IMG/VR virus record: IMGVR_UViG_3300023184_004051
Coordinates: 44,671 to 108,670 of that record
DNA from: a virus
Reading direction: 5' to 3' (one strand)
Length of the DNA: 64,000 bases
This document shows positions 4,961-62,193 of this stretch, piece by piece. Both the position numbers and the translations under genes were made by a program. Each line of letters begins with the position of its first letter. Positions within the stretch are counted from its first letter, which is position 1. The notes beneath the pieces are model-generated. The model did no database searches and was not told where the DNA came from. It saw nothing but the letters and a program-made list of their open reading frames with translations.

Positions 4961-7900
4961 ATGGCTACCCTTGTCAGCGCCTTTGGGTCCGCTAGTAGTG
5001 CGGCACTAACGGCTAGCGCCGCTTTCACTGTCCCCTATACCAACCTTCTAAGCGTTGCCCCTGCTGCGGGTGATTATGTGTTCGTTGCCCTTTGGCTGAC
5101 TCGTAATGCCGCCGCCACGCAAGCACAGTCATCAAACGGCACTTACGCCTCGGTAGCGTGTGGCTCGGTCTACCTGACCTGTATGGAGAACACCTCGGTT
5201 CCGACCAACCTCTCGGCAACCTCAACGACGCTATTTCACCAATATGGCGTTCCGGGCAACCTTTCCGCCAATGCCGTGAACCTTGCTGTTTTTGGAGCGC
5301 CTTACACGGCAGGTATGGCACGAGGCATCACCGTCACAGGGTTCAACGCCGGTGCTGCTACCGCAGTCCTTCTCTGCACCGCTATGGCAGTTCAGGGCAT
5401 CTACACGCCCCCAACAAACCCTCGGACAACGTGGTGTAAAACCATTGAGAACGGTGGAGTGGTTGACACGACATCGGGTTCCGGTTTGGCTTGGGCGAGC
5501 AATGGCGTGACCCCAAGTATCACCGCATTTGGAAGCACGAAGGTCAATAACAGCAACTTGACTTCCGCCATCGTTGATGATGTTGTAGCCGGTGCGGTGA
5601 CGGGCATCTTGAACCTTGGCTCTGCTGGCTACCAGACCACAGATTTTTCCACTAGGTATTCCAATCAAGAAGGTCTTTTTATTGGGAACCTAGATGTCAT
5701 TGGCTTTGGCGGCAATGGTGGCTCAGCAAACGTCATCGTCACAAACTCCAACAACCCCGTTCCGCCGGCCCTTTCAGGTGGCCCTAGCACTTGGACTGGC
5801 AAATACCTTGGGATTGGACAAGCGATATCGGGTGCGGATATTCCACAAGACACTTACATCACAGGCTTCAGTTATGACCCGAACTACTTGGGCTTTTTAG
5901 GCCCCACTTGGTTCGTCAACACCAATAATCTCGTCACCCCCTCCGGTCAGTTCTGGGCGGGTGCTGAACAGCCTGTCCTTGTCGTGATGTTCACCAACAA
6001 CTCAACGACTACGGCTGCTACAACTTCGGTTGGAAACACCGGAGGAACCGTCAACAACGGTCTGACCTACCTTGACCCCCAAGGGTCAACGATGTATTTC
6101 ACCTCATTTGGGTCGGCATCGGGAACTGTGGGAACGGGAACAAACACCTCGTTGCCAACTGCGGGCAGGGTGGTTGTGCCGACTTATGGTGGAAACACCA
6201 CTCTTTCGTGGACTTCCAAACCGTCTAGCACCTCCCTTGCGGGTTGCACCGCTCCATCATCACCACTTGATAAAGACCTCTATCAGTTGTGGATGGACAA
6301 TGTGCAAACCGGCTCGCAGTTTTGGGACTGCACCCCCGTCGTGACGAATAGTGGAAACGCAACCTCTCCTGCTAGCGCCCCTCCGGGCATTGAGACAGTC
6401 AAGACAGTTCTTGCTACAACCACAACGGGTTTCCAAACCGGAACTTTGGTGATGGCGTATGGGGCGAACCGTTCAGGAATAAGTCCGGTATCCCTTTTCG
6501 GACACCTTCGGCACGGCTCGGTATCATCAACCAACTTTGGATTTGGAGCGGCTTTTTCCTTCAAGCCCAACAAGTCATCCATCATTGGCACAGTGGGCGA
6601 AGTGGTGGAAACAAGAACAACTCCCGGCTCTGGCGTGTCTCGTGGGGCTATCCGCTCATCGGAAGTCATTGAGTTGGACACAGGTGAAAGTAGCGGCGCT
6701 GCTCGCACTTTGCCAAAAACCTCGGAACCATCACTATTGGCAAAAGGTGAAATCCAAAACTCAAAACAGAGCAATGTGGCATCTCAGGTCAATGAAGTGC
6801 TTTCAGCACAAGACAAGCGTGGCACAAATATTGGCGAGAAGGGCGCTGCAACTTATGGAACATTGTTCCAAGAAGTTGTTAGAGCCGTGTTATTCAGCAA
6901 ATCTAATACGGTCACGGAACTGCTTGACACGCAAAGCGTGAGAGCGCAAACGGCATATCGCCTGAGCGCCGTTAGTGAAATCTTGTCCTCAACCAGCCAG
7001 AAAACCCTGCTGCTCAACACCCTCACCAAAGCCGTCACATTTGCTCGCGGTGGGTATGTTCCAAAACTGAACAGCATCACCGGACTCGGCATCTTGGGTC
7101 AAGAAGCATTGGGCTATGGCAACTTCTACCCGACGAACAACTGGTACAACACCACTCTCGCCAAGAACTTCACGAAAACCTATGTCGAGGCGGGGGCGGT
7201 TTATCTGCTTTCCACTACCGAAAACACGAAGGCTACGATACGAAATGTCATATCAAGCGTTGCTGATGTTCCAACCTCAGCCAGCCAGCGAGCAGTCACA
7301 ATCCCACGCTCTGCTGCGGTTGCTGAAGCGCCGACAACCACATCTCAACGGTCTACCATCCGTTCCTTTGTCGCCGCCGTTGCTGAAATCTTGTCAGGAG
7401 AGAACACACGCAGCGTCAACAAGGGCAAAGTAAGCGAGGTCAACCTCACTCCAAGTGGTGAAAACCAACGACAAGTGGCGGGCAATGTCGTCGGCTCGGT
7501 TGCTGAAGCCCCCAAGAGCGCAAACGGAACTTCCAAAACTCTCGCTCGCATCACCACTGTTGTTGAAGCACTCAACACGGTGGCAACCAAAGTCCTCGTC
7601 ATAAATCGTGCCTCTGAAGTTGCTGAAAAGCCATCAGAAAGCAATACGAAGTCATCGGCATTTACTCGGTCAAGCCAAGTCTCGGAACGACCCACAACCA
7701 CATCGCAGCGTTCAGCAAGTCATTCATTTGCCACAACTGCCAACCTGTTGCTATCAGCAACCGTCACTCGTTCTGTTGGCGTGGCGAGGGCAAGTTCGGT
7801 TTACAAGGCGATTTACACCACCGCCTTTGCCATTCTCATCAAACTGACAAGCGGGTTCGTTGCGACCTTCACGGAATACCCAAAGACTGAGGGTTTCACC

Positions 7901-10375: not shown

Positions 10376-10387
10376 ACCGACTAAGGA
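10376..10387 (+). promoter_or_regulatory. ACCGACTAAGGA leader element with Shine-Dalgarno
   Basis: Twelve bases ending in the Shine-Dalgarno AAGGA, 7 nt before ATG 10395. The same 12 bases occur before the genes starting at 61901 (minus) and 62202, and are complementary to the loop of the predicted small RNA at 55898-56018. Confidence 0.6.
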
Positions 10388-10394
10388 GTAGCCT

Positions 10395-10679
10395 ATGACC
10401 CGCAGAACACCAGTAGCCGAGGTCGTTCCGAACTACACCCCCACTTGGGTGACAGTATTGGAATGGAACGGCTTGACACCGGGCGACCCCGTGAAAATCA
10501 CGGGCGAGCGAGGGGACTTCACCTTCGCCTCTGTCCACGAACGAGATGGCGAGGTCATCTCTGTCAATGTTCACGGCGGGATGAACGGTCACCAAATGTG
10601 TAGGTCGTTTTATCCCCAAAAGGTCAGCAAAAAGGTCGCCAAACGGTCACGCCTTCGCTCGGCTCCGGCTGGCGACTGA
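10395..10679 (+). CDS. small basic protein with own promoter
   Basis: 94 residues. SH3/OB-like beta text (TWVTVLEWNGLTPGDPVKITGERGDFTFASVHE) followed by a basic tail (KVSKKVAKRSRLRS). The dedicated sigma70-type promoter and ACCGACTAAGGA leader set it apart from the surrounding structural operon and suggest expression at a different time, perhaps early. The name of the function is not known. Confidence 0.65.
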   Translation: MTRRTPVAEVVPNYTPTWVTVLEWNGLTPGDPVKITGERGDFTFASVHERDGEVISVNVHGGMNGHQMCRSFYPQKVSKKVAKRSRLRSAPAGD

Positions 10680-19968: not shown

Positions 19969-22900
19969 TACCTCATACACCGCAGCGCCATCTCTGGTTG
20001 CCACGAACACCACCAACAAACCGACTATCACGACGAATACAAAACTCAACATCACCTCGCCGTGGCTCGCCTCAGGAAACGCCGGTCAACCGGACATTTC
20101 CACCACTTTGTCTGCAACTGCTTTGGAAGGCGCTTCGACGCTCTCGATTGTCTCAGGTGAAAACTTCCCCACCTCCTATCCGAGCGTGTTCCAAAGTGGC
20201 ATCACCTACCTCCCACCGAGCATTGGCCGCTTGGCAGGCTCAGTCATTTCCGGCACGAATGTCATCCCGTTCGTTGCTGATAATGAACTGCCGACCCAAG
20301 CCCCTACCTTCGTGCGCTTAGGTAGTGAAATCCTCCAAGTGTTGAGTTTTGGCAATGTGACGGTTGGAGCCACAAACTACAGTTGCCTCAACACGGCAAC
20401 AAACACGGCTTCAGCACACCCGGACTTCACGCCCATCCACCTGAACTCGCTGCCGACCAACACGCAATACACGAGCATCACAGTTCCGCATTTTTACCTC
20501 GCAGATGTGAGTGCAACCGGAACGATGTCGGGAACGAGCAATACCATCACCACCGCCGCTTTGCCAGCAACCCTCGGCAAGGGGCAAACGATTACGACGG
20601 CAACAGGCGGAACAACCTACCTGCCTTCGGGAACGACGGTTGTGGACTATTCCACTAACTCGGGTCTCATCACGCTTTCCAATGCGTTCAGCACAGCCGC
20701 AGCAGGCATCACTTTCGTCAATGCGGCGAACTTTACAGCAAATATGAACCCTGTGATGTTGTCATCTATCGCCTCAGTGACAAGCCCTGCCGGTGGCACA
20801 CACACCATAATGTCCAGCCTTCCAAACATCGGTTCGGTGATGACCGGAACGGGTATGGCATCACCTACTTACATTGCCGCCATTGACACGACAAACTTGC
20901 GCCTTCAGGTTTCAGCAAACCCGACCTCGTATGGAACGACTGTTGCGCTCACTTCGACGCTCACTTTCACCTGTAGCACCGTTTCTGGTAGCAAAATCCT
21001 GACCATCAAGAACATCACCGTCAACGGAACTTCATATCCAAAAGTCGGCTCGACCAACCCAACTTGGAACGGGAGGTCGCTCGCTTCCTACATCAAGGTT
21101 GGCGCTCCTATCACCACTACGACTGGCGGTGGCATCGCTGCAAAGTATGTGACTGCAATCAACCCAAGCACGGGTCAGGTCACGATTTCAGCAAACGCAA
21201 CCGCAACTGTGGCTACGGCAACAGTCACCTCGGCAATCACGATGACTGCCAACACAGGGCGTTCGGTCAATGTCGTCAACAACGCAAGTAGTGAAATCAA
21301 CAAAATCATCGCTGCGGGAAGTTCATTCTCGGACACCGCAGGTGTGACTACCTACATCGCTGCTGGCACGACAATCACCAAAACCCTCGCCGTCAGTTCT
21401 ACCCAAACTGAACTCACGATGTCTGCTCCATCTGGCACAACGGGTGCGTGGGCAGGTCGTGTGGCTCAACTTTCCACCACTTTCACGGGGACATCAAGTT
21501 TTTCCAACCAAATCACGGGAGTCGTCAACGCCTCCACCCTGTATCAAGTCGGCTCGGCGGTCTATGGGAACCAATACATCCCTGATAACACCACCATTAC
21601 GGGTATTTCGGGAACGACGCTTACTCTCTCCAACGCTTTGACCAACGGTTTCACCACTTACACGGGGCAAACCTTCAAGGTGAGTAGCAGCCTGAGTATT
21701 GGAAAAACCTATTCAAGCCTGCCGGTGACACCACTTCCTTGTTCAATCCCCGTCGGCACGACGCTCTACCTGTCTTTTGGAAACTATGTCCAAAACTTGA
21801 CGGTCACCTCACTCGGAAGTGCGGGCGACACAACCCTGTCGGTCACGGCGTTCCAACCTCGCTACAACTTTTCCACTACCTCTTACTCCTATGGCGTTGC
21901 CGTCGGCTTGACGGGTGGGTATGGCTATGGAGCAAGCATCACCACCGGCCTGAACGCCGACCTCTACACAGGTCAAGTCATCTTGCTTCAGGCGAACAAC
22001 AGCACGGATTTGACCACTCCTGTCACAGTCAAGTCGTACACTCGGATGACTTCACGAACCATTGAGACAATGCCCTTCGTGTCTCCCTACGCCTATGACG
22101 GACAAAGTGTGGGCTTTTCCACCACAGCGAACTTCACGGGCGGCAGCGACCAAGTGACGAGCGTTGGGTCAACGGGCGGATTGACGATTGGGCAACAGGT
22201 TTTCAGCACTTGCCTGCCGACGACGGCTCAATGCTTCATCACGGCCATCTCTGGCACGACACTCACCATCAGCACTCCGGCCACTTCGGGTGGAACGGGT
22301 GCGACCCTTTCGGTCTACTCAAACACCTTCCTTGCATCTATCCCATTGACTTTGGATAAGGGCAAAGTGCAAGAGGTTGTCTACCCGATTTCACTACCGA
22401 CGAGCAATGGTTCGTCGTGGGACATTAGCCTCGCTAGCCAGACAACTTATCAGCACAACAACAACGCATCGCTCGTCTACTACCACTGGCCTACGCCAAT
22501 CAAGACTGGTGATGTCACTTACCGACCCGACCTTGGCAAGTTGTTGATGTGGGATGGCTTCGGTTGGAGAACAGCACGAGTCAACTCCGTGAGCGGCGTG
22601 TATTCCATTCTCGGTGCAGTTGGCGGTGGTGAAATCTCAGACATCACGCTCTACGACCCGACGACCAACAAGGAAACAGCAGCCGACACATACAAAGGCT
22701 CTCCTTCAACCAAGTATTCCACCTATCACGGTGGCAAGCGGGCGGTTGACCCCAACGGCAATGAGTGGACAGGGGCAACGATGTCCCGTATTCAGTTTCA
22801 CCTCAAAGTCAAGGTTCCTCAGGGCAAGTCGGTGGGCTTCCGCAGTCTGGCGCTCCAAAGCGAATACAAGGCAGCGCCGTCGGTCAGCAGCGTCCACTTC

Positions 22901-31267: not shown

Positions 31268-31275
31268 TAGTCGGT
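31268..31275 (-). promoter_or_regulatory. ACCGACTA leader element of the Gam operon
   Basis: ACCGACTA in the leader, 17 nt before the start at 31250. Shares the 8-nt core of the ACCGACTAAGGA elements but is followed by GAAAGCAGG instead of AGGA; possible weaker target of the predicted small RNA at 55898-56018. Confidence 0.4.
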
Positions 31276-35102: not shown

Positions 35103-35633
35103 GTGCCGGAAACGAAAGTCAACAAGCCTGCAAACGCAATCCGAGTAGGTGAAATCGGGTTTGCCCGAACCAAAGGTGCGATGGCGAAACTCATTCGTGC
35201 GAGCGAATGGCTGAAATGGCGTTCGTGTCAGTTCAACCACACCTTCGTTGTGGTCACGGCAGGAAACACCTACGAGGAAACTTGGATTGTCCAAGCCGAA
35301 CTTCGAGGCGTGACGCTGCGCCGTTTGTCCGAACTCCTGCCGGATGCTAGTGAAATCCACTTTGTCGCCCCGCCGGAAGGCGTTGACCGCAAACGGGTTG
35401 CCCTGTTCGCCCTTGCCGAACTTGGTCGCCCGTATGGGATTTTGAGTATCATCTGCATTGCGCTGGATATCACCACACCGGATTGGTTCCTTGCGTTTCG
35501 CCGCAAGAACACTTGGATTTGCTCGGCTCTTACAGCAGAGGCTTGTCGTTATGCTGGTTGGTTCTATGACTTCCCCGACATCTACCTCGTCACCCCAACC
35601 CGACTTTGGCAAGCCCTTCAGGAAGCGAAGTAG
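35103..35633 (+). CDS. YiiX-like NlpC/P60 superfamily hydrolase
   Basis: 176 residues, GTG start after GGGGGAA. IRVGEIGFARTKGAMAKLIRA, then CQFNHTFVVV (His candidate), a hydrophobic helix, and TWICSALTAEACRYAGWF (Cys nucleophile) and YLVTPTRLWQAL follow the permuted papain-like YiiX/YebB pattern (GDi ... H--ivv ... wiCSel-a-a--Ga ... -tP--l). Could cleave peptide, lipid or cell-wall amide bonds. It is the best candidate here for a lysis or wall enzyme, but it lies in the replication region. Confidence 0.65.
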   Translation: MPETKVNKPANAIRVGEIGFARTKGAMAKLIRASEWLKWRSCQFNHTFVVVTAGNTYEETWIVQAELRGVTLRRLSELLPDASEIHFVAPPEGVDRKRVALFALAELGRPYGILSIICIALDITTPDWFLAFRRKNTWICSALTAEACRYAGWFYDFPDIYLVTPTRLWQALQEAK

Positions 35634-54703: not shown

Positions 54704-55318
54704 ATGTCCGACACTTCCAATACTCCCGAGTTCACCTTGCCGCCCCTTCCCGAAAAGGGTAAGAGGACAGGCAGAAAGACCCTTCTCACCCCAGAGGTCA
54801 CCGATGCCGTTGTAAGGCTTCTCAAAGCCGGAAACTACCTCAGTCAAACAGCACGGTATCTCGGCCTAGACCCAACCACTCTGAACAGTTGGAGGGCAAG
54901 AGGGAACGAACTGATGGCAAGTGGGAGGGAGGATTTGGATGAATACGAACAAATGTTCGTAGACTTCTCCATTGCCGTAGAGAGTGCAAAGGCTGAGGCT
55001 GAAATCAGGGCAGTAGACATCATCCGCAAGGCTATGCCGAAAGATTGGCGAGCAGCAACTTGGTATTTGGAAAGAACCAACAACCGAGATTGGGGAGCAA
55101 CCCAACGGACAGAGGTATCAGGCCCAGATGGAGGGGCTATCCCGATAGATGTGGACAGTGTGTATCGGAAGTTGGAAGCGGTCACCCAAAGGGTCGTTTT
55201 GGAAGCCGAGATTGCATCTCAGCCGACAGAGAGTGCGGAACTACCAGAGAGTGCCGGAGATGGTGAAATAGAGGCCAATGAGCCGGTTGTAGAGAGTGAA
55301 CCGAATAAGGCGTTATGA
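54704..55318 (+). CDS. terminase small subunit
   Basis: 204 residues. Residues ~22-70 (GRKTLLTPEVTDAVVRLLKA, GNYLSQTARYLGLDPTTLNS) are the HTH that binds the packaging site. KAEAEIRAVDIIRKAMPKDW and ATWYLERTNNRDWG are conserved in the small terminase/phBC6A51-like family. The C-terminus is acidic. It is separated from the large subunit by 2 kb of mainly non-coding DNA, which is unusual. Confidence 0.85.
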   Translation: MSDTSNTPEFTLPPLPEKGKRTGRKTLLTPEVTDAVVRLLKAGNYLSQTARYLGLDPTTLNSWRARGNELMASGREDLDEYEQMFVDFSIAVESAKAEAEIRAVDIIRKAMPKDWRAATWYLERTNNRDWGATQRTEVSGPDGGAIPIDVDSVYRKLEAVTQRVVLEAEIASQPTESAELPESAGDGEIEANEPVVESEPNKAL

Positions 55319-55412: not shown

Positions 55413-55441
55413 TTGACTTTGGATGTGGGTTGCGTTAGCCT
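55413..55441 (+). promoter_or_regulatory. promoter TTGACT-N17-TAGCCT for a non-coding RNA
   Basis: Good hexamers with exact 17-nt spacing; start expected near 55448. The downstream ~300 nt has no convincing ORF. Confidence 0.65.
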
Positions 55442-55447
55442 GCGTTT

Positions 55448-55746
55448 GGCCGCAACAAGGCGGCCCAAAAACATAGAAGTTCAGGGACTACACACCCTGC
55501 ACCTCTACCGCAAACAGCGAACAAGAGCCGGCCCCGCCACAAGACTGACCTGTCCAAGTCAGAGGGGTCGGCTTGTTGCGTTGTAGGGCATTGACGGTTA
55601 GTGAAATGTGCGATTACGCTCTTGGTTGAAGTGGCCGCTACAGAAACCCATAGGTCTAAAGGGTCTGCAACCTTTACTGACGAGTAGGGCGCTGCTTCTA
55701 GGGCAACAGCAGACCCGCCTCCCTTTTGCGACGGCGGGGAGTTTTT
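55448..55746 (+). ncRNA. candidate structured RNA 1
   Basis: Between a sigma70-type promoter and two terminators. Internal hairpins include GGCCGC-AACAAG-GCGGCC, CAGGG-ACTACACA-CCCTG, a long stem CCGGCCCC / GGGGTCGG (about 55541-55578) enclosing GACT...AGTC, and GCTG...CAGC. The only ORF reading through (from 55608) runs past the terminators and has no protein-like content. Ends are inferred. Confidence 0.5.
55714..55746 (+). terminator. intrinsic terminator of RNA 1
   Basis: CCCGCC / GGCGGG stem followed by GAGTTTTT. Confidence 0.75.
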
Positions 55747-55748
55747 GG

Positions 55749-55785
55749 CTAAGACCTCCGCACTATGCGGGGGTCTTAGTTATTT
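55749..55785 (+). terminator. second terminator, 13-bp stem
   Basis: CTAAGACCTCCGC pairs with GCGGGGGTCTTAG (one T-G pair) around ACTAT, followed by TTATTT. Confidence 0.8.
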
Positions 55786-55807
55786 CACTACGATGCGCTC
55801 GCTCGAC

Positions 55808-55928
55808 AAAAAACCCCGAGTTTTGGAAAACTCCGCAGATTTCAGCAGATTTTCGTAGACGAAAAACCCCCCGTTCCAAAACGCAACACGGGCAGACAAA
55901 AACCCCCTCGCAAGCGAAAACAAGGGGG
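55808..55928 (-). terminator. three tandem leftward terminators
   Basis: Read on the minus strand, three stem-loops each run into GGGG(G)TTTTT: GAGTTTTCCAAAACTC then GGGGTTTTTT (to 55808); CCCGT...ACGGGGGG then TTTTT (to 55863); and CCCCCT...AGGGGG then TTTTT (55928-55898). The first to act on RNA 2 is the last named. Together they would stop leftward transcription from entering the small terminase operon. Confidence 0.7.
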
Positions 55929-56018
55929 CTTCGTCTTAGTTAGGGAGGGCAACACCGCAGCCGTCGTCGAATGAATACCGACTAAGGAAAAACAGAGAAA
56001 CGACGACTACGGGTTGCC
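55898..56018 (-). ncRNA. candidate small antisense RNA (RNA 2)
   Basis: About 121 nt from a near-perfect promoter to an intrinsic terminator. The 5' part folds into a stem (GGCAAC/GTTGCC, CCG/CGG, GTCGTCG/CGACGAC, with internal loops) closing a 31-nt loop (55969-55999). The loop contains CCTTAGTCGGT, the complement of the ACCGACTAAGGA leader element of several phage mRNAs. Pairing would reach 15 bases with the leader of the gene at 62202 and 12 with those at 10395 and 61901. Existence of the RNA is an inference from these signals. Confidence 0.6.
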
Positions 56019-56025
56019 GACTCAC

Positions 56026-56054
56026 ATCATAAAGCGAACACAGGTTCGTGTCAA
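56026..56054 (-). promoter_or_regulatory. promoter TTGACA-N17-TATGAT (minus strand)
   Basis: The closest match to consensus in the window. Start expected near 56019, exactly at the first base of the RNA 2 stem. Confidence 0.85.
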
Positions 56055-56114
56055 GCGGTATGTGACACCCCCCTCGTAAACTTGTTCCCGGAGGGGTCTG
56101 TCTCCGTACAGCGC

Positions 56115-56197
56115 AAGACCCCCACCGGAGGTCGGTGAGGGTCTTATGCGCCCGACTAAGAGCGAGCGGCGGCGACGAAGTGGGGGCTTCATCACCT
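56115..56197 (-). ncRNA. candidate small RNA 3 with the same antisense core
   Basis: From the promoter at 56204-56232 to a 12-bp hairpin (AAGACCCTCACC / GGTGGGGGTCTT, 56145-56115). Between them lies CTTAGTCGG (56160-56152), the same core as in RNA 2, flanked by CGCC...GGGCG arms. The hairpin lacks a T-run, so the 3' end is uncertain. A 56-codon arginine-rich frame also begins near the start but has no good ribosome site. Confidence 0.4.
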
Positions 56198-56203
56198 GCA
56201 ACT

Positions 56204-56232: not shown

Positions 56233-56243
56233 ATCGGGCAAAG

Positions 56244-56271
56244 AAAAAAGCCCCACCCCGAAGGGTGAGGC
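56244..56271 (-). terminator. intrinsic terminator of RNA 4 (minus strand)
   Basis: GCCTCACCC-TTCG-GGGTGGGGC followed by TTTTTT: a perfect stem (one T-G pair) with TTCG loop. Confidence 0.9.
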
Positions 56272-56661
56272 TCTGTCTCGCAAGGCTACTTATCGGATTT
56301 CCCTTTTCCTCAGGCTAACCGCTCTCGCTCCCCACTTCCTAGACAGCGCGGCTACACCTCCTACGAGTGCCACTTCTAGGCTTGCCCGCACACTTGCGCG
56401 ATTGGGCTTTGAGTATTTGTGACCCGATGAGTCTGGCGTGTCACCCTGCTAGCCCACACGCCTTTGGATGGAAGGTCAAGCGCAACCTGCCGGCCCGCTA
56501 TCGCTCGTCATCCTCCGGCGCAGAACGCACATAGGGATTTCCCTTTCTAAGAGGTAGACCCCCCCAAACTGCTCAGCCTTAGAAGCCCGCAGCCCAAAGT
56601 GACACAACACACCCATCGGATTTCGTTGTCAAGGAACTTCGTGAGGTCTACCGCCCCTCAC
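56244..56661 (-). ncRNA. candidate large structured RNA 4 (~418 nt)
   Basis: Bounded by a promoter (56668-56696) and a perfect terminator. It opens with CGTGAGG...CCTCACG at the predicted first bases, and contains GGCGTGT...ACACGCC, CCTAGA...TCTAGG with an inner GTGGC/GCCGC, and two copies of AAAGGGAAATCC. Frames on either strand are short or lack starts. Not recognised as tmRNA, RNase P or 6S RNA. Possibly a giant phage RNA of the ornate (GOLLD-like) kind, but this is only a suggestion. Confidence 0.5.
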
Positions 56662-56667
56662 GCAACT

Positions 56668-57310: not shown

Positions 57311-58276
57311 ATGAACCAAATCATCCAGCGGCTTTTGGAAGCCGGCCCCGAACAGAAGCGGCAAATCTTGTCGAGTCTGTCAAAAGACGAGTTAGCAGTC
57401 GTCTACCGTGAGTTGGAAGTCATCGAAAGCAGCCCAACACGGCGTTGGTATTGCCCCCGTGAGGTCTGCAACGGCGAGCCACACGCAGGATTTCACTGGT
57501 GCGACCACCCGATTGACGGGAACCACACGCCATACTGCAAGCACGCTCGAACACCACAGCGCCCGCCGGAGGAAACGGCAGACAAGCCGTGGCTTACTTG
57601 GTTCTTTAGCGGCGGTCGAGGAACGGGAAAGACACGAGCCGGAGCCGAGTGGGTTTTGGATTTGGTATGGAACCAAGGCTACAAGCGCATCGCACTTGTC
57701 GGTCGAACACCAGCCGATGTCCGAGATGTGATGATTTACGGGGATAGTGGAATAATGTCCGTGAGCGACCCCCATCCCCGCCCCACACACGAGCCGACCA
57801 AGCGCAGGCTCATCTGGCCGAATGGGGCGCAAGCCTTCACCTATTCCGCCGCCGCTCCGAGTCAGTTGCGTGGCCCTCAGCACGATGCGGCGTGGTGCGA
57901 TGAGTTGGCCGCTTGGACTGACGCTCCAAAGGGCGATGTTTTGGACACCTCTTGGAACAACCTGATGCTCGGCTTGCGTCTGGGGACAAATCCAAAGGCG
58001 CTCGTCACCACCACTCCAAAACGAGTCAAGTTGGTTCGACAAGTTATGGAGCGTCGAACAACCGTGATTACACAAGGAACGACCTACGAGAACCTTTCCA
58101 ATATGGCCGCTTCCTTCCGTGAGAACGTGCTTGCGGCCTACGAAGGCACACGCATTGGCGAACAGGAGTTGATGGGAACCCTCCTGACAGATGTTGACGG
58201 TGCAATGTGGACTTTGGAAATGCTCGAAAATCGAGCCGAACTTGTCGCAAGCGTGCGAGCGGGGCTAGATGATTAG
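57311..58276 (+). CDS. terminase large subunit, ATPase part
   Basis: 321 residues. A 95-residue N-terminus with a Cys/His group (YCPREVCNGEPHAGFHWCDH) is followed by Walker A FFSGGRGTGKTRAGAEW (~97-113), QLRGPQHDAAWCDELAAW with the Walker B-type CDE (~185-202), and the coupling motif VTTTPKR (~235). This is the DNA-packaging motor. It stops at TAG 58276, where a full-length protein would continue into the nuclease; the next ORF overlaps by 8 nt in the +1 frame. Confidence 0.9.
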   Translation: MNQIIQRLLEAGPEQKRQILSSLSKDELAVVYRELEVIESSPTRRWYCPREVCNGEPHAGFHWCDHPIDGNHTPYCKHARTPQRPPEETADKPWLTWFFSGGRGTGKTRAGAEWVLDLVWNQGYKRIALVGRTPADVRDVMIYGDSGIMSVSDPHPRPTHEPTKRRLIWPNGAQAFTYSAAAPSQLRGPQHDAAWCDELAAWTDAPKGDVLDTSWNNLMLGLRLGTNPKALVTTTPKRVKLVRQVMERRTTVITQGTTYENLSNMAASFRENVLAAYEGTRIGEQELMGTLLTDVDGAMWTLEMLENRAELVASVRAGLDD

Positions 58277-58898
58277 AGTCACGCCAGACGATTTCACTCG
58301 CATCGTCATAGGGGTTGACCCATCCGTGACTTCAGGCGAGAGCGCAGACGAAACGGGCATCGTTGTAGTTGCAGCCGGCCCACACCAGCCCGATACTTGC
58401 GTGATTGAGACTTGCGACAGCCACGGCTATGTGCTACAGGATGCGACGCTCGCCAAGACCAACAAGAACAGCGTTGACGCTTGGGTGCAACGGGTCATCG
58501 AGGTCTTTGACGATTGGAACGCCAACCTTGTTGTGGTGGAAAGTAATCAGGGCCACGAACTTTTGGAAATGGCGCTGCGGACAAAGCGGCCTGACCTACC
58601 CATCAGCAGACCGAACGCCAAGGAGAACAAGAAGGCACGAGCCGAACCCATTGTGGCGCTCTACGAGCAGGGTCGAGTTCACCACGTTGGCGACGCTGCG
58701 CAGTTCGCTCAGTTGGAGGAACAGATGACGACTTGGGTTCCATCACCAGACGGCAAGCGGCGAGGCAAGTCACCTGACCGCGTTGACGCTCTTGTATGGG
58801 CGCTCGCGGAACTGAACTTGCAGGGCAAGAAATACCGCAAGCAGTTGGAAGCGTTTGCTCCGGTCAACTTCGAGCAACGCAATATGTGGCGTATCTAA
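58269..58898 (+). CDS. terminase large subunit, nuclease part (separate ORF)
   Basis: 209 residues, ATGATTAG overlap. RIVIGVDPSVTSGESADETG supplies the first Asp, VVVESNQGHELLEMAL the Glu, and GKSPDRVDALVWALAEL the last Asp of the RNase H-like headful or cos nuclease. In most phages this is fused to the ATPase. Either a real split with coupled translation, a +1 frameshift, or an assembly error of one base. Confidence 0.9.
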   Translation: MIRVTPDDFTRIVIGVDPSVTSGESADETGIVVVAAGPHQPDTCVIETCDSHGYVLQDATLAKTNKNSVDAWVQRVIEVFDDWNANLVVVESNQGHELLEMALRTKRPDLPISRPNAKENKKARAEPIVALYEQGRVHHVGDAAQFAQLEEQMTTWVPSPDGKRRGKSPDRVDALVWALAELNLQGKKYRKQLEAFAPVNFEQRNMWRI

Positions 58899-59684: not shown

Positions 59685-60043
59685 TACTTCACCTCTTTCG
59701 GTTGGAAGTTCCACGCCTCGGCAAACTCCCACGCCTCTTGCAAGAGGTCAGCAGGGGCTTCCTTAGCCGTGATGGTCAACTCAATCAGGCCAAACTCAGC
59801 CAGCCTCATCAAGAACGCTTCATCGCTCATCTCATCGTCAATGAGGATGCGATACTGCACGAACACCCGATAGGCAATGCCACGCTTCGGGTATTTGTGG
59901 TCCATCGGGTTGTAAGACCGCTCACCAATGATGGCGAGGATGTCAAACGCTGATGGTTGGATGATGATGTCCTTACCCCACCTCACCTGCCATACAGCAG
60001 ATGAGGGGGAGAACAGAGCATCGTTGGGCATCTCGGGCATCAC
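59684..60043 (-). CDS. hypothetical protein
   Basis: 119 residues (GTG 60043 or ATG 60040). FSPSSAVWQVRWGKDIIIQP, a central RVFVQYRILIDDEMSDEAFL and an acidic helical end. Overlaps neighbours by 1-4 nt. Unrecognised. Confidence 0.65.
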   Translation of the reverse strand: MMPEMPNDALFSPSSAVWQVRWGKDIIIQPSAFDILAIIGERSYNPMDHKYPKRGIAYRVFVQYRILIDDEMSDEAFLMRLAEFGLIELTITAKEAPADLLQEAWEFAEAWNFQPKEVK

Positions 60044-60788: not shown

Positions 60789-60796
60789 TAGTCGGT
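60789..60796 (-). promoter_or_regulatory. ACCGACTA leader element of the amidotransferase gene
   Basis: ACCGACTACAGAAAG, 17 nt before the start at 60771; partial match to the antisense loop of RNA 2. Confidence 0.4.
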
Positions 60797-61908: not shown

Positions 61909-61920
61909 TCCTTAGTCGGT
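61909..61920 (-). promoter_or_regulatory. ACCGACTAAGGA leader element of the amidoligase gene
   Basis: The full 12-mer, including the Shine-Dalgarno (AAGGAGGG), 7 nt before the start at 61901. Confidence 0.6.
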
Positions 61921-62181: not shown

Positions 62182-62193
62182 ACCGACTAAGGA
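62182..62193 (+). promoter_or_regulatory. ACCGACTAAGGA leader element
   Basis: Part of a 15-base match (ATACCGACTAAGGAA) to the complement of the RNA 2 loop, 8 nt before ATG 62202. Confidence 0.6.

Follow-up and report, generated by a model that had tools for sequence, protein, structure and literature searches.

Does the gap between the terminase genes of this phage encode a small RNA whose loop is antisense to the ribosome-binding regions of several other phage genes, as a preliminary description had proposed, and what would such an RNA do? The window analyzed is a stretch of 64,000 nt corresponding to nt 44671-108670 of a virus record with a total length of 108,670 nt; positions refer to this window unless given as record positions. 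From PHROGs matches, tail genes can be located at about 10.9–28.8 kb, TerS at 54704-55318 and TerL at 57311-58898, the latter consisting of two overlapping ORFs (57311-58276 and 58269-58898) and being split likewise in the relative L015. The helicase and the amidoligase have their closest counterparts among Arthrobacter phage proteins, suggesting an actinobacterial host.

Anatomy of the predicted RNA gene

The locus lies in the noncoding, structured gap from TerS to TerL. On its minus strand, all elements of the proposed gene were found, namely the leftward TTGACA-N17-TATGAT promoter (11/12), the unit of about 121 nt with its intrinsic terminator and, with a loop region of about 30 nt instead of the proposed 31-nt loop, the loop-closing stem of about 20 bp (Table 1). 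The minimum free energy of the 121-nt unit is –57.2 kcal/mol, compared to –31.4 ± 3.2 kcal/mol for shuffled sequences (z = –7.96), and its terminator folds into a 13-bp stem. In a scan for promoter-terminator pairs covering the phage and related genomes, this promoter was the strongest. With a promoter and an intrinsic terminator of its own, the unit has the layout of a trans-acting antisense sRNA gene. The region gave no match in a DNA similarity search against phages and none in an exact 17-mer scan of IMG/VR, and no Rfam family was matched by the sRNA, the covariance model of the C4 antisense RNA included.

Table 1. Features of the predicted RNA gene and leader sites in the window, with net pairing energies in kcal/mol.
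Feature	Position	Strand	Basis or net pairing
–35 element TTGACA	56049..56054	-	sequence
–10 element TATGAT, after 17-nt spacer	56026..56031	-	sequence
Perfect palindrome CGAACctgtGTTCG in promoter spacer	56035..56048	.	sequence; putative LexA binding
Predicted 121-nt small RNA	55898..56018	-	promoter/terminator anatomy and folding, z = –7.96
Stem 5' arm	55999..56018	-	folding
U/C-rich terminal loop region	55969..55998	-	folding
Antisense seed UCCUUAGUCGGU, exact complement of ACCGACTAAGGA	55977..55988	-	exact match
Stem 3' arm	55948..55968	-	folding
Intrinsic terminator hairpin, GC-rich, TTTTT at end	55899..55932	-	sequence and folding
ACCGACTAAGGA, ribosome-binding site of 94-aa gene starting at 10395	10376..10387	+	–18.1
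ACCGACTAAGGA, ribosome-binding site of amidoligase gene (61901)	61909..61920	-	–18.1
ACCGACTAAGGA, ribosome-binding site of divergent gene 62202; best pairing	62182..62193	+	–26.4
ACCGACTA in leader of glutamine amidotransferase gene (60771), off the Shine-Dalgarno sequence	60789..60796	-	–14.0
ACCGACTA in promoter-proximal leader of gene 31250	31268..31275	-	–14.9

While the promoter elements had been described correctly, the perfect palindrome between them had been missed and is newly reported here. It reads CGAAC-N4-GTTCG, the SOS/LexA box consensus of Bacillus subtilis and Staphylococcus aureus (PMC9578287). From this consensus operator placed within a promoter, as in genes of the LexA/SOS regulon, we infer regulation by LexA. 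The same box occurs inside a second promoter-like element at record position 35553 (G000:35553, L010:16553) and in its counterpart in a relative (G002:79708, L253), in both phages preceding a very short ORF, which suggests that it is a real operator. By eye, the gene following the short ORF at 35553 has the look of a cell-wall hydrolase (Rpf/transglycosylase-like). A further CGAAC-N4-GTTCG sequence inside TerS (54946; also in G002, L284) was rejected as an operator, being dictated by conserved amino acids.

The surroundings of the unit are structured as well. Directly upstream, at 56090-56200 on the minus strand (z = –4.5), CTTAGTCGG (56161-56149 region) is complementary over 9 nt to the leader motif described below. 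At 56240-56662 on the same strand, a structured stretch of about 420 nt without a long ORF (z = –3.2), bounded by a promoter TTGACT-17-TATGGT (56696) and a terminator (56274-56247), is predicted to be transcribed as a possible second noncoding RNA. The interval between TerS and the sRNA (55440-55800, plus strand) is noncoding and highly structured (z = –4.6), with terminator-like hairpins.

Leader motif and specificity of the predicted pairing

The 12-mer ACCGACTAAGGA has eight exact copies in the 108,670-nt record. Seven of them are located at ribosome-binding sites, while the eighth lies antisense in the sRNA loop (record position 100647); the backwards control pattern is absent from the record. 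The seven leader copies (record positions about 6948, 7457, 11505, 15803, 55046, 106579, and 106852) each lie at the ribosome-binding site of an ORF, shortly before its start codon. Among them are the sites at genes 10395, 61901 and 62202 to which pairing over the Shine-Dalgarno sequence had been ascribed and where an exact copy is indeed located; the other four had been missed because they lie outside the window. The longer version ACCGACTAAGG(A) is exact at 10376+, 61910- and 62182+, and antisense at 55977. The leader of the gene at record position 6614 bears a close variant of the motif, and two more leaders have only the 8-mer ACCGACTA (record positions 75938 and 105459), as had been stated for genes 31250 and 60771. 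In line with the claim that this core recurs beyond chance, the window contains eight copies where 0.91 would be expected, a number that none of 100 shuffles reached. However, the alleged site at codons 2–4 of 59684, absent in the relative L012 and with a net pairing of only –6 kcal/mol, probably just belongs to the coding sequence, and the 8-mer at 20020 lies inside a coding region. Besides, a dispersed short repeat, TAGTGAAATCC / GGATTTCACTAC, is present in about ten copies in the window, often before gene starts, and also in the relatives L015-L019.

Net pairing with the loop amounts to –16.7 to –26.4 kcal/mol at the seven full sites and –14 to –15 kcal/mol at the two ACCGACTA-only sites, compared to –6 and –10 kcal/mol at two sites judged fortuitous; opening of the target sites costs 2–4 kcal/mol, indicating that they are accessible. 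When all 31-nt stretches of both strands were considered, only the sRNA locus had 10-nt complements to seven translation starts, others reaching at most six and being mostly the leaders' own complementary strands. At a match length of 12 nt, the loop hits seven translation starts, whereas shuffled loops hit 0.016 on average. In contrast to these longer exact matches, from which the discrimination came, counting duplexes at a loose cut-off of –14 kcal/mol did not discriminate (76 versus a mean of 66). Moreover, when hairpin loops antisense to 9-mers of the leaders were sought without bias, the sRNA locus ranked first in the genome. Hence, the gene layout, the complementarity and its specificity, and the retention of the leader motif can be read directly from the DNA, and the loop has an accessible seed against several translation initiation regions, above chance.

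Over the seven leaders, column information is maximal at the 12-mer, C(–4) and A(–2), with low values at the remaining positions. With the 12-mer invariant, flank and spacer positions near random and the promoters differing, the motif has not spread as a copied promoter cassette. The invariant C(–4), on the other hand, is outside the sRNA complement, and thus the leader motif appears to be partly selected for something else. None of the target genes is a recognized structural gene according to PHROGs, the families found being amidoligase, amidotransferase and two of unknown function, the rest orphans. The present phage has a conserved sequence of its own over the Shine-Dalgarno site of many non-structural genes.

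In L012, the only close relative (amidoligase 73% identical), whose sequence ends before the sRNA region, the motif is kept in three orthologous leaders, those of the amidoligase and the divergent gene and, as ACCGACTA, that of the amidotransferase. The latter copy stands about a dozen nucleotides before the Shine-Dalgarno sequence, and its retention there argues for an element that is more than an extended Shine-Dalgarno. The more distant L015 and L016 (G004/G005) show a shifted ACCAACTGA in the same leaders and several others, with CCAACTGA replacing ACCGACTA in the amidotransferase leader of L015, and L019 (G007) has CAACTGAC in most promoter-driven leaders. Hence, each lineage has its specific version of the element, the copies within a genome changing in concert, and, to judge from the exact matches, the present loop fits its own genome's version. 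An own repeated leader, GGAGTTGTGGG...CCTC...AGGAAGG, is also seen in the relative L278 (IMGVR 3300010885_022097), suggesting that leaders are homogenized by each phage. Of the covariation between loop and leader that had been suggested as a check, the shift of the leader motif among relatives was thus observed, whereas a matching loop was not found: scanning the partial genome sequences of G004/G005 and G007 revealed the leader motif and no antisense hairpin. The TerS-TerL region is rearranged in relatives. A candidate sRNA at 10229 in L015 (AAGUUGGU) was rejected, its seed being in the stem and the complementary segments in the wrong order. Scanning viral contigs for ACCGACTAAGGA-R-N(4-8)-ATG gave no new multi-copy genome among the matches listed, these being mostly single chance leaders, and a search for TerS relatives retrieved only distant ones.

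Conservation of the motif in relatives without a detected antisense RNA, together with C(–4) lying beyond the complement, would also be compatible with the main rival explanation, in which the motif is a protein-binding site or an extended ribosome-binding element and its antisense copy a coincidence or the relic of a reversed leader. However, one extra exact 12-mer is expected by chance only about 0.01 times per genome, the observed one is antisense and located in the loop of a unit with promoter, hairpin and terminator, and its plus-strand copy has neither an in-register start codon nor a gene. A second phage group bears on this point from both sides.

Reversed start-associated sequences in K1-type mycobacteriophages

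According to Pope et al. (2011, PMC3203893), mycobacteriophages of cluster K possess 13-bp start-associated sequences (SAS, GGGATAGGAGCCC) at non-structural genes; in four genomes, these authors noted a single copy in reverse orientation, and they asked whether SAS are bound by an RNA or a protein of host or phage origin. In papers from 2024 and 2025 (PMC11373665, PMC12699233), their role is still called ill-defined or unverified, and an antisense RNA for SAS is not proposed in the accessible text of any of the three publications. Like the present leader motif, SAS are described there as phage-specific conserved sequences over the Shine-Dalgarno site, a few nucleotides before many non-structural starts and longer than pairing with the 16S rRNA explains, accompanied by a single reversed copy that is not at a gene start (PMC3203893). 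However, GGGATAGGAGCCC is unrelated to ACCGACTAAGGA, and the present phage lacks the 13-bp consensus.

In nine K1-type phages (Adephagia, Anaya, CrimD, Dole, Yunkel11, Curiosium, Validus, Peanam, and LilPharaoh; L342, L343 and L344-L350), a conserved hairpin contains the lone reversed SAS, CTCCTATCCC, in its loop, a placement established in the present analysis. The reversed SAS is found at 58682-58694 in Adephagia (L342:30683-30695; hairpin at about 58,662-58,715) and at 59870 in Anaya, in both cases in an intergenic gap of about 400 nt and within a hairpin of about 20 bp, GCGCGG-CCTCCTATCC-CCGCGC, over which a small hypothetical ORF is annotated in some K1-type records. The anti-SAS loop is invariant among the nine phages. 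In an alignment of nine sequences, i.e., eight of these phages plus Ekdilam, 98% of the stem cells are paired, the value for slid versions being no higher than 51%, and in two pairs both sides have changed. Of the 17 phages examined, 16 have a conserved promoter-like sequence, GCTTTTAGACT, as well as a first hairpin ahead of the K1 hairpin. According to strand-specific RNA-seq of Adephagia at 30 and 210 min (PMC11373665), late rightward transcription starts between genes 92 and 93, that is, at the gap of the hairpin and on the strand giving the antisense loop. The K1-type hairpin is therefore a candidate anti-SAS RNA, residing in a late leader, whereas the hairpin of the present phage belongs to a stand-alone promoter-terminator unit. 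In the 9-mer scan mentioned above, the SAS-antisense hairpin came first in Adephagia and Anaya, most relatives giving none or weak ones.

Complementarity of the homologous, CU-rich loop to SAS is only partial in Ekdilam, Tierra and Shandong1 and, at the level of genera, in Amginevirus and Unicornvirus, and the loop is not antisense in Keshu (Keshuvirus), Pixie, Marshawn, SirPhilip and Pharb, where SAS persist; the right end of ZoeJ has no gap comparable to that of the K1 hairpin. Since SAS are kept in other subclusters without an exact antisense loop, an anti-SAS RNA is not their whole function, which again would suit a protein-binding site. Against the latter, the same arrangement is present, as far as the predicted hairpins tell, independently in the present phage and the K1-type phages. 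In sum, a protein site or extended ribosome-binding element with a fortuitous antisense copy is considered unlikely, albeit less so than any of the other alternatives.

Proposed mode of action and relation to known RNAs

Layout, complementarity, the unique pairing with seven starts and the K1-type recurrence all support an sRNA antisense to phage ribosome-binding regions, and we assign a probability of roughly 0.7 to the unit encoding a genuine antisense sRNA that targets these leaders. Such an RNA would act in trans, its long stem presenting the single-stranded loop for pairing with ACCGACTAAGGA at a minimum of seven non-structural genes and with ACCGACTA in two more leaders. Pairing over 12–15 nt would cover the Shine-Dalgarno sequence and block ribosome binding, by which a whole regulon of non-structural, probably early, genes could be turned down in one step; the sRNA thus probably switches its target genes off together. 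As to expression and timing, the promoter is strong but has the SOS box between –35 and –10, by which host LexA would probably keep it off early in infection, with release following once LexA is cleaved or titrated. A promoter silenced first and released later would make the sRNA an early-gene shutoff switch.

The P1/P7 c4 and P4 CI RNAs are likewise phage-encoded stem-loop RNAs pairing with ribosome-binding regions of phage genes, each acting on one operon in lysogenic immunity. Given these shared mechanics and the anatomy of the unit (promoter, hairpin, and terminator), the present RNA might be an immunity RNA of this type, produced in the carrier or lysogenic state to block the early genes of a related superinfecting phage. 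This is, however, quite improbable, as the SOS box is expected to keep the promoter off in undamaged cells, neither a tyrosine integrase nor an S24-type repressor was found in the record and the Rfam C4 family was not matched. In contrast to c4 and CI, moreover, the loop matches at least seven separate transcripts. Because the plus strand carries ACCGACTAAGGA between the same inverted repeats, a plus-strand hairpin could be imagined as a decoy presenting the leader motif and titrating a translational regulator; with promoter and U-tract terminator serving the minus strand only and the transcribed strand in Adephagia (rightward, late) being the antisense one (PMC11373665), this is very improbable. 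Next to negligible, finally, is an unexpressed structured region without functional sRNA, perhaps harboring packaging signals as its position in the structured noncoding gap between TerS and TerL might suggest, since an 11/12 promoter, a consensus operator, a terminator and multi-gene complementarity are unexpected of a packaging site.

Returning to the antisense sRNA, blocking of purine-rich Shine-Dalgarno sites by hairpin loops is known from 6C/B11 and other C-rich-loop sRNAs of actinobacteria. These are host-encoded with general anti-Shine-Dalgarno loops, whereas 7–8 of the 12 nucleotides paired here are upstream of the Shine-Dalgarno sequence and phage-specific, and Rfam gave no match. In a review in which a repeated leader code is not described for phage antisense RNAs (PMC12197685), sar RNA of P22 and the OOP and aQ RNAs of lambda are treated as antisense repressors of phage genes by base pairing, and VpdS of phage VP882 and PreS of lambda as phage-encoded RNAs regulating other mRNAs. 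The former three are cis-encoded and overlap a single target, in contrast to a trans-acting RNA addressing a repeated short site, while VpdS and PreS are Hfq-dependent and directed at host transcripts (VpdS also at phage ones), without a repeated phage leader motif. To our knowledge, none of c4, CI, sar, OOP, VpdS and PreS uses a repeated leader code.

If confirmed, the sRNA would represent a phage RNA governing a regulon via a single repeated leader code. It provides a concrete candidate for the partner of SAS, i.e., a phage RNA with a loop exactly antisense to a repeated ribosome-binding-site motif, in an arrangement seen in two unrelated phage groups, and could explain why K1-type phages, of which Adephagia can be grown on M. 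smegmatis and edited in the laboratory, carry a lone reversed SAS. More tentatively, and with somewhat less than even odds, SAS of actinobacterial phages in general may be landing sites for phage antisense RNAs that shut off a regulon at the early-late transition, under SOS control in the present phage and from a late leader in K1-type phages, having arisen at least twice with unrelated sequences. In that case, they would constitute a translational counterpart of the transcriptional early-late switches.
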